A DNA stretch of 29,751 nucleotides from IMG/VR virus record IMGVR_UViG_3300035661_000262, positions 1-29,751 of that record; one strand, written 5' to 3'. The notes beneath the pieces were generated by a model. It worked only from the letters and a program-made list of their open reading frames with translations. It was not told the origin of the DNA and searched no databases. Shown piece after piece: positions 25,597-28,560 of the stretch. The first letter of the stretch is position 1, and each line of letters opens with the position of its first letter. The position numbers and the translations under genes are program-made. Source of the DNA: a virus.

Positions 25597-28560
25597 CTAT
25601 GGTTTAGGCATAATTGTTATTGTATGGAATTTCCATAATGCTTCATTTCCTGTAGGATTTGTTGCTATTGCATTAGTTGTAAATTGATGCTGTGATAGTA
25701 GTCCCCCAATAACTTTAACCCAGACTATATCATTAACAGTATCCTGCCACATAGTTAAAGGTCTTCCAGTAGCAGACTCTAAAGTAGCTTTATCGTTTAC
25801 ATATGATGATGAGTAAATACCAGTATCGGCGGCAGCCGCTAGATTTTTAGGAATATAATAAAGAGCTATATTTTCTGGATTGGAGGTAGGGCTACCAGGG
25901 CCGTTAGTAAACATAACTCTAGCGGGTACTTTACCAGACCACCCGAATCCAATTATAAGATTATCTGTAGGTCTCCAGAAATTAGTAAGGGTTGCCCCTA
26001 ACCAAATACTTAAAGCTGGAAAGTTATTATATCTTATTCTATACTTCTGGTTAACACGTAGTCCTGCATGTCTGAAGTTTACTCTACTATATATACCTAT
26101 AGCTGATCTACTATACCAAGTACCCCTAACTACATCATTACTATCCAGTAATTCATACGTAATGGGCTCTACTGTGGTTGCAGTATCTTTTGAGGTAACT
26201 AAAGATCCATCGACGTATCGACATAGCTCGTTATCCCAAGTATTAAGAACAATACCATATACATGGTCAGGTGTACTAAACCCCTGGTGATCATTAAGTG
26301 GAGTTACTGGTGTTAGGCTGCTAGCCCCATAATTCATAAAGGGGTCGTCCTGCATAATATAGTGTCCAGGAGTAGACCAGTATCCATAAGGATCCCATTC
26401 TGCCGCCGAAATATTCCATGCACGGTGATCATTTTCCGGGGGTACAAACGGTCTTCTATCAACGCTAGCGTCCTGAGACCTAAATCCGGGATGTGCGTTA
26501 GAAAATTGTAGTCCGGGAGACCTTACTAAACCTTGCTGTAGTGGCTCTAAGTATAAATCATGAGTGCGCATAGCACCACATCCCATCCATAGACCCTGAT
26601 CTATAATACGCGTTCCAGGTACTGGCAAACTTTTTTCTCTGCCACCGTAAGGAAAGTTAACAAAAGTAGTATTAACTGGATACCCGGTTCTATGATAACT
26701 AGCCAATGCGTGCATTGTGTCCGTCCATGCTCCAATAGGAGCATTACCAGTATTTGCTGAGTTACCTTTTCCTAACCAAGTATCAAAATGGTTAGTATAC
26801 CCTACAAATAAACATCCAGTAAACTGAGCATCCCAGGCAGAACCTATGGCATGTAAATGTGGATGACTAGAAGAACACCAATTTAAGTAATTAGATTGTC
26901 CAACAGCATTTTGATACCCCAATCCACCAGAATGGTGGTTGCTTACATTAGAAATAGTAAATCTAAGTCTATTTCCTCCAACATTTGGATGCTCTTGATT
27001 ATCAGTAGGTTGATACATCATTAGACCAACTGTACCTAATTCATCAACTGCGGCACCACCAGTTCTAATATTTTCTTGTGCATTACTAAATATCTTGTAT
27101 CCAGTGTGTATATTATTACCAGGATGAATATATGCTGGTTTTAATGGTACATTAGTAGACTGTCCTAAACACCTATCGTTTAATGCATTATGAAGGCCCT
27201 TACCCATACAATCAGCAGCTAAAGGGTCTATTACTGAATTATTCATATTGGTAACCCAGAAGCCTCCCGGTCCTATGCCGACAGCCGCCTCATTACCAGT
27301 ATCTTTATCATAAAGATCAAACCCCTTAATAAGATTAATCTTCCCAGGGGAGTTAATCATTAATGCTGTAGGTCTAATCCATTTATTATTTTGTTCACTA
27401 CCATCTTCAAATATGAAGGCCCATCCATCAACATTATATGCTATGGAATCAATATTGATAATGTTATCTGTGCCATGTGTAACGTATGCACGATTTGCGC
27501 TACTTTCTACAACACAACCTTTTACACCTTGTCCAAGAGTATTATTGTTAGTACGAGTACCACCACCGATATACTTTTCAGTAGCAATATCATACTTAGC
27601 GGGTACATAGCTTTGCATATGCCAGTGGAAAGGGTATCTACCTATACGACCGGATTGGCCACAGCGTATAGTCTTAATACCTTCAAAATATGCTTTACCT
27701 CCTGCCATGCACATTGTGTGCATACCTTGACCATCGGCAGCAGTTCTAGTAGGAGTACCACTTAAATTGGCTGACCAGTTTACATCATTAACTCCACTCA
27801 TATTAAAGTTACGAGTTACATTAATGACTACTGCTCGTTCATCAATAGATGACGGCATTCCTGGATGACCTTTAGACCATACTCCCCACTTATTAGATAC
27901 AGAATTAGTACCATATGGAACATCTATAGGATACTGTAACTTACCCCACCTACTATACGTAATAGGCTTATCTATAGTAATTTTGTTATAAGAAATATCT
28001 AAAATCTTACGTTTCTCTGACCTTTGGGCCATATTAAAGAAACCACTAGGAGATATAACTATTTCATCTCCGATATTCCACAAAGAAGGTTTTTCCGTAA
28101 TAATTACGTTAGTACCCGCTAATGCATGGTCTCCTAGAAACATTCTAGGATACTTAGGATACTTAGAAATAAGTCTAGTAGTACCTCCTGGCATAGTCAT
28201 AAGAGATCTATACATAGGATCACTATTATCATTAATATGTGGTATCTTACTATGCTCGGGCCATATAGGGTCTATACCATTATATTCTATAGTTATGGAA
28301 TTAGTAAGAGGTGAGCCATATTCTCCACCTAAAAAAGAACCAAAAACCTGAATACACTCAACCCCAGGTAGACCTACGCTACCTATAGGGGATATTATCA
28401 GAGAACTATTCTTTTCTATAATAATACACCCTAAATTAGGGGAGGCTAATATATCTAATATAACTGTTTTACCACCACTAATAGTAACGTCACCACTAAT
28501 TGGTACAGTACCACCCCATGTAAGGGGGTTCGACCAATTTTGTCCCACTAAAGTAGTCAC
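25597..28560 (-). CDS. Large G8-domain beta-helix protein (CEMIP/TMEM2-like)
   Basis: A 987-residue protein. The N terminus (residues 8-120) matches the G8 domain: W-S-N-P-L-T-W-G-G, then a P..GD.V.I..GKTV.LD pattern and IIIEKNSSL. The following region has right-handed beta-helix character with blocks seen in animal CEMIP and TMEM2 proteins: GDHALAG, CGQSGRIGRYPFHWHM, AYVTHGTDNI and WAFIFEDGSEQNN. Some CEMIP-family proteins take part in hyaluronan breakdown. Here it could be a capsule- or glycan-cleaving enzyme or virion spike. No signal peptide is visible. The GTG start overlaps the stop of a 32-codon gene (GTGA). It lies far from any structural gene in the window. Confidence 0.85.
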   Translation of the reverse strand: MTTLVGQNWSNPLTWGGTVPISGDVTISGGKTVILDILASPNLGCIIIEKNSSLIISPIGSVGLPGVECIQVFGSFLGGEYGSPLTNSITIEYNGIDPIWPEHSKIPHINDNSDPMYRSLMTMPGGTTRLISKYPKYPRMFLGDHALAGTNVIITEKPSLWNIGDEIVISPSGFFNMAQRSEKRKILDISYNKITIDKPITYSRWGKLQYPIDVPYGTNSVSNKWGVWSKGHPGMPSSIDERAVVINVTRNFNMSGVNDVNWSANLSGTPTRTAADGQGMHTMCMAGGKAYFEGIKTIRCGQSGRIGRYPFHWHMQSYVPAKYDIATEKYIGGGTRTNNNTLGQGVKGCVVESSANRAYVTHGTDNIINIDSIAYNVDGWAFIFEDGSEQNNKWIRPTALMINSPGKINLIKGFDLYDKDTGNEAAVGIGPGGFWVTNMNNSVIDPLAADCMGKGLHNALNDRCLGQSTNVPLKPAYIHPGNNIHTGYKIFSNAQENIRTGGAAVDELGTVGLMMYQPTDNQEHPNVGGNRLRFTISNVSNHHSGGLGYQNAVGQSNYLNWCSSSHPHLHAIGSAWDAQFTGCLFVGYTNHFDTWLGKGNSANTGNAPIGAWTDTMHALASYHRTGYPVNTTFVNFPYGGREKSLPVPGTRIIDQGLWMGCGAMRTHDLYLEPLQQGLVRSPGLQFSNAHPGFRSQDASVDRRPFVPPENDHRAWNISAAEWDPYGYWSTPGHYIMQDDPFMNYGASSLTPVTPLNDHQGFSTPDHVYGIVLNTWDNELCRYVDGSLVTSKDTATTVEPITYELLDSNDVVRGTWYSRSAIGIYSRVNFRHAGLRVNQKYRIRYNNFPALSIWLGATLTNFWRPTDNLIIGFGWSGKVPARVMFTNGPGSPTSNPENIALYYIPKNLAAAADTGIYSSSYVNDKATLESATGRPLTMWQDTVNDIVWVKVIGGLLSQHQFTTNAIATNPTGNEALWKFHTITIMPKP

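Follow-up and report, generated by a model that had tools for sequence, protein, structure and literature searches.

A CEMIP/TMEM2-type beta-helix protein encoded between direct repeats in the tRNA region of a phage genome: a probable accessory polysaccharide depolymerase

The 29,751-base virus record IMGVR_UViG_3300035661_000262, analysed in its full length and referred to here as the window, contains an uninterrupted open reading frame (ORF) of 987 codons with a GTG start (25597..28560, minus strand); this ORF is real and encodes a protein of the CEMIP/TMEM2 type, which is probably an accessory polysaccharide depolymerase built on the CEMIP/TMEM2 core and either bound to the virion or released at lysis. 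We infer for this protein an enzymatic activity, a polysaccharide substrate, and a route by which the substrate is reached, the substrate most likely being a bacterial surface glycan. In the proposed mechanism, the protein would correspond to the CEMIP/TMEM2 enzyme core, in which a continuous right-handed beta-helix starting from G8-like turns is followed by a beta-sandwich, domain X, with none of the lectin-like domains of the animal proteins. Conserved His, Arg, Glu/Asp, and Asn residues stacked on successive rungs would constitute the catalytic groove, and the polysaccharide cut would belong to the host envelope, as capsule, exopolysaccharide, or O-chain. Made in the cytoplasm with no signal peptide, the protein would reach this substrate either as part of the virion or, after lysis, as an enzyme in soluble form, and its gene would represent an accessory cassette between direct repeats where the tRNA genes of a T5-like phage form a variable region.

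The assignment to the family is clear at the sequence level. The Pfam family PF24606 (CEMIP_beta-hel) matches residues 278-471 (27148..27729, minus strand) (E 1.9e-28; 100.1 bits, cut-off 27.3), and a second profile comparison of this domain with the ORF gives E 3.7e-31; no other Pfam domain is found in the protein at E<=10. Among all PDB chains, human TMEM2 (8c6i) is matched by phmmer at E 9.5e-8 over residues 238-506, the remaining matches having E >1 and not being credible, and a 36-row profile of the family retrieves TMEM2 as its sole match (E 2.3e-77). These E-values, together with the whole-chain fold, rule out a chance resemblance to CEMIP/TMEM2. The CEMIP/TMEM2-like blocks quoted in a preliminary description of this DNA are all in place, with GRYPFHWHM at residues 307-315, THGTDN at 361-366, and FEDGSEQNN at 384-392, and the PF24606 match backs the kinship that they had suggested. 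The same description took the protein for a G8- and CEMIP-type beta-helix; the beta-helix and CEMIP part of this reading is supported by the HMM, whereas the G8 part is reached by alignment and fold, the G8 Pfam model (PF10162) having no match in the protein at E<=10. The G8-like first turns of the beta-helix (28171..28539, minus strand; approximately residues 8-130) were placed by alignment to G8-bearing relatives and to the stretch where the TMEM2 helix begins. In most full-length relatives the tblastn alignment starts at query residue 1-9, several full-length relatives do score the G8 Pfam model, and the predicted model is aligned from residue 1 to TMEM2 residue 112, so that this part of the protein is supported indirectly.

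The predicted fold points in the same direction. The AlphaFold2 model of the 987-residue protein, obtained with 36 sequences as input (the window protein, three of the four viral relatives, and 32 of the 79 genome loci), has a mean pLDDT of 81.7 and a pTM of 0.84, and the top structural match of this predicted model is the human TMEM2 ectodomain (Z 31.2, rmsd 3.9, 789 residues), from end to end, with model residues 1-987 against TMEM2 112-1158. It is followed by AlgG (Z 21.1) and by other alginate epimerases and PL6 lyases (Z 17-21), and phage depolymerase tailspikes are among the structural neighbours at Z ~18-20, below TMEM2. Foldseek concurs, with 8c6i at E 2.7e-29 and the next entry at 8.9e-9. 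Among the predicted viral proteins in the matches listed, none is a full-length structural partner (query TM-scores <=0.29), and the named viral proteins listed are mainly beta-helix proteins and spikes. The C-terminal third, equivalent to TMEM2 domain X (residues 655-987; 25597..26598, minus strand), was folded separately with a 35-row alignment (pLDDT 75.9, pTM 0.82) and matches domain X, TMEM2 869-1158, with Z 14.1, the next match having 8.3. In the predicted models, a continuous right-handed beta-helix is thus followed by domain X, and this is the layout of TMEM2 given in PMC10206443. The comparison proposed in the preliminary description places the protein closer to TMEM2 than to tailspikes, and both the beta-helix, as predicted, and the conserved residues on which that description depended are present.

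A ladder of polar residues runs along the predicted helix (27385..27720, minus strand) and comprises H281, R308/Y309/H312/H314, R357/H362, and E385/D386/E389/N392, with N438 and N441 further downstream. Across 84 rows, made up of the window protein, four viral loci, and 79 genome loci, R308, H314, R357, and H362 are conserved in all 84; H312, D386, and R242 in 83; Y309, P310, Q302, and E389 in 82; and E385 and N441 in 81, with N438 kept in 77 and H281 in 76 of 83 rows. The patterns that retrieved the genome loci include RYPxHxH and GHxFFxED, so the conservation of those two blocks is inflated; R242, Q302, R357, H362, E389, and N441 are outside the retrieval patterns. Between residues 238 and 457, 33 positions reach at least 97% in the 36-row alignment and, by eye, the window protein keeps 29 of them and TMEM2 28. 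The predicted strands 280-284, 311-314, 359-362, 382-384, and 434-436 hold or adjoin conserved polar residues, as expected for stacking on one face of a beta-helix, the order of the ladder on the rungs being read from the predicted secondary structure. Because the phage protein, almost every relative, and TMEM2 all retain His, Arg, Glu, and Asn residues on successive rungs, it is plausible from the model that they form an active-site groove, and the ladder is a candidate for the active site that the authors of the TMEM2 structure could not assign.

The nature of the substrate is a separate matter. According to PMC10206443, TMEM2 has a pair of lectin-like domains, the first inserted in the helix and the second C-terminal, and mutation of an Arg in the first lectin-like domain of CEMIP and TMEM2 reduced hyaluronan breakdown. 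Ahead of the core block, the phage protein is ~130 residues shorter than TMEM2, an estimate that assumes the length of the N-terminal tag, and the model alignment stops at TMEM2 residue 1158 of 1381; the animal lectin-like domains appear to be absent from it. Both the location of the TMEM2 active site and the question of whether TMEM2 is an enzyme are argued in print (PMC10206443, PMC10474455, and PMC10276149), its activity being reportedly calcium-dependent (PMC10474455) and denied by others (PMC10206443, PMC10276149). Since the domains with the hyaluronan-linked Arg appear to be missing and the activity of TMEM2 is disputed, hyaluronan is weakened as a substrate; it is unsupported for the phage protein, and the hyaluronan-specific reading was dropped.

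The genomic context suggests an accessory gene. The window includes genes for a split NAD ligase, a D5-like regulator, a family A DNA polymerase, a primase, and a DnaB-like helicase, and the polymerase has relatives with ~49% identity in Vibrio, Salmonella, and E. coli phages of about 104-118 kb, which we take to be T5-like; this replication gene set and the polymerase relatives assign the window to the early region of a T5-like phage. The location described earlier, among tRNAs (15 by ARAGORN in the whole window) and small membrane-like ORFs, the latter directly upstream of the CEMIP gene, and outside the tail genes, holds. Read along the coding strand, tRNA-Ala and tRNA-Thr come first, followed by three small ORFs, a repeat, a tRNA-like remnant, a 32-aa ORF, the CEMIP gene, the second copy of the repeat, tRNA-Gln, and a Ro60 (TROVE) gene. 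The 43-nt direct repeat, with an upstream copy at 28723..28765 and a downstream copy at 25533..25575 (both minus strand; 41/43 identical), is the strongest self-match in the whole window, and its core has no further copy within the window. The downstream copy runs into the 5' end of tRNA-Gln (TTG; 25468..25543, minus strand), the downstream border of the cassette; after the upstream copy, a tRNA-like 5' half (28680..28733, minus strand), recognized by eye and not called by ARAGORN, is an apparent remnant. The 32-aa ORF (28557..28655, minus strand) is preceded by an RBS-like AAAGGAG, and its stop codon (TGA) and the GTG start of the CEMIP gene overlap by 4 nt, which suggests translational coupling. 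In L089, neighbouring tRNA-Asn and tRNA-Gln are separated by 7 bases and followed by Ro60, and this junction looks like the site with no insert. PF24606 is found in none of 15 related virus records (0/10 and 0/5), which are possibly fragments; these records were identified by their Ro60 or NAMPT protein, and the D5-like protein is present in 4 of the 8 tested. The codon usage of the CEMIP gene resembles that of the rest of the phage (RSCU correlation 0.82, other genes giving 0.72-0.90), and the idea of a fresh foreign gene is consequently unsupported.

Several other elements of the window were recorded. The 59-aa ORF at 28953-29132 (minus strand; phrog_33676) and the 32-aa ORF have like starts and look like paralogues. 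A ~50-base repeated element is located at 25422-25471, 17540-17589, and 10253-10304 (pairs 79-82% identical), with a promoter-like TTGAAT-17-TATAAT inside the copy at 25422-25471. Between tRNA-Gln and the Ro60/TROVE gene, at 25250-25430 (minus strand), a long hairpin whose terminal stem has 18 bp (z -3.2) is a Y-RNA candidate, and the sequence adjoining the Ro60 gene has no match to a Y-RNA in Rfam. NAMPT and a cytidyltransferase/Nudix protein are encoded close to each other (20552-23432, minus strand), consistent with a phage pathway of NAD rebuilding. A permuted tmRNA is present at 19906-20159 (minus strand; Rfam tmRNA_permuted, 85.2 bits vs a gathering threshold of 47), its tag being read by eye as ANDDTYFEEFRLAA, and ARAGORN predicts a permuted tmRNA in a relative, L103, at 10948-11344. 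A tRNA with a CTA anticodon, of the amber suppressor type, is located at 17235-17314 (minus strand) and is also found in L098 and L103. Another tRNA at 19716-19802 (minus strand) was missed by ARAGORN and carries a Rfam tRNA-Sec label barely over the cut-off; by eye, its TGA anticodon and long variable arm indicate that it may be a tRNA-Ser.

Relatives of the protein are encoded in bacteria and viruses. The four plasmid records with a relative are all annotated as G8 domain proteins, the best being that of Vitreoscilla filiformis (pVF1; E 2e-53). A pattern search of 84,980 species genomes gave 512 stretches, of which 462 encode a relative, and 79 distinct loci were kept. No relative is found by tblastn in 50,697 named phage records with the window protein, L010, and L009 as queries, and none of the papers searched pairs 'bacteriophage' with 'G8 domain'. 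In IMG/VR, a first scan with a single sequence gave no match; alignment-based scans of 2.9 million contigs, run twice with the same result, identify four that carry a relative (L006-L009), each above the PF24606 cut-off. A tree was built from 81 of the 84 rows, the motif not being located by the script in the other three. It groups all five virus rows with six bacterial rows in a set of 11 (99*) but does not support one clean clade of viruses: the starred branches force at least three changes, and 56 of 500 shuffles were as low. The window protein, L008, and L009 are on long branches, and their precise positions are uncertain. The terminal branch of the window protein (2.13) and the rarity of the gene in phages would also fit a decaying passenger, acquired by chance and functionless in the phage; nevertheless, 987 open codons, an intact ladder, and phage-like codon usage make this explanation very improbable.

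The genes around the viral relatives and the N-terminus of the protein bear on the route of the presumed depolymerase to its substrate. L009 is flanked by the genes of a fibre-like protein (23 PHROG families matched, including 11 tail families) and of a head-closure protein, and DNA-ejection genes and spike-like ones follow further along. The L008 gene comes after those for the portal and the major head and tail proteins. L006 has portal and terminase genes close by, on the opposite strand, and L007 is near helicase, primase, and ribonucleotide reductase genes. The position of L008 and L009 in structural modules favours a location on the virion. Of 76 genome relatives whose N end is closed, 68 have, by a simple rule, a hydrophobic core or a lipobox-like leader; the start of the G8 motif, measured in 66 of the relatives, is at a median residue of 64 (minimum 26), compared with 8 in the window protein. 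L009 and L008 are under the limit of the leader rule, although for L008 the leader script began at an internal ATG and the domain scan covered the longer ORF (from 9635), and L007 is cut by the contig end; L006 has a clear leader, so that not all viral copies are leaderless. Judging from its sequence, the 987-residue protein appears to be made with no signal peptide, and it would therefore be released by lysis or carried out with the virion. A virion anchor or tailspike family is matched in none of Pfam, PHROGs, and NCBIfam, the last two having no family at all for the protein at E<=1, and ~7 residues precede the G8 part; the missing anchor and the early-region location favour release at lysis.

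The same data were weighed against two other explanations. The protein may be a virion tail appendage acting mainly in glycan binding, with weak or no catalysis, as could be argued from L008 and L009, from the tailspikes among the structural neighbours, and from the possibility that TMEM2 itself is not catalytic (PMC10206443); this is unlikely, however, given the short N-terminus with no anchor domain, the location of the gene in the early region, and a near-invariant polar ladder that exceeds the needs of a pure binder. The classical host-binding spike envisaged earlier is weakened by these same features of N-terminus, family, and early/tRNA location. Less likely still is a moron, that is, a bacterial surface or secreted G8 gene acquired by the phage that changes the infected cell, for example by superinfection exclusion or host polysaccharide turnover, and acts away from the virion: the accessory position between repeats, the absence of PF24606 from the 15 related records, and the secretion-type leaders of most genome relatives agree with it, but the missing leader makes export before lysis unlikely, and the phage-like codon usage is not that of a fresh arrival. 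In summary, an accessory depolymerase with the CEMIP/TMEM2 core is the favoured explanation. Of the preliminary description, the kinship with CEMIP/TMEM2, which extends over the whole chain, the beta-helix, here with a conserved polar ladder, and the location outside the tail genes are supported; a glycan depolymerase is plausible, and hyaluronan as a substrate and a classical host-binding spike are weakened. A broader proposal, possible but doubtful, is that the phage and bacterial proteins represent the minimal CEMIP/TMEM2 catalytic core and that R308, H312, H314, R357, H362, E385, D386, E389, and N441 are the active site left unassigned in TMEM2. Phages, bacteria, and animals would in that case share a new mechanistic class of enzyme, the phage protein being its first depolymerase for capsule or exopolysaccharide and its gene a movable cassette in T5-like phages.

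Compared with known systems, the protein shares with phage capsule depolymerases and tailspikes (Klebsiella K1 lyase, CBA120 TSP2, Dettilon, and Phi92 gp150) a right-handed beta-helix, the structural similarity extending over 295-371 residues, and likely a polysaccharide target; it differs from them in that no sequence kinship is detected, no anchor domain is found, and the gene is outside the tail cluster. To our knowledge, domain X and a G8 entry are not features of tailspikes, and the protein would bring a further type of fold to the polysaccharide enzymes of phages, with no match in PHROGs or in the named phage records. Alginate C5-epimerases AlgG/AlgE and PL6 lyases have the next-best folds after TMEM2, over ~290-360 residues, but, in contrast to the full TMEM2 match, this similarity is limited to the helix and the likeness observed is one of fold. 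The bacterial G8 proteins, from V. filiformis pVF1, Planctomycetota, Chloroflexota, Bacteroidota, and Burkholderiales, are colinear with the phage protein over most of the chain (~25-30% identity), although they are mostly secreted or lipoprotein-like, have long leaders, and are encoded on chromosomes or plasmids. With human TMEM2/CEMIP2 (8c6i) and CEMIP (KIAA1199/HYBID), the phage protein has in common the beta-helix with a G8 part, the RYPxHxH, HGT, and EDGxE blocks, and domain X; it differs in its sequence (~17% identity in the aligned part), in having neither a membrane anchor nor a signal peptide, and in the apparent absence of the lectin-like domains, and such a lectin-free phage or bacterial relative with the same polar ladder offers a simple protein for settling the question of the TMEM2 active site by mutation.
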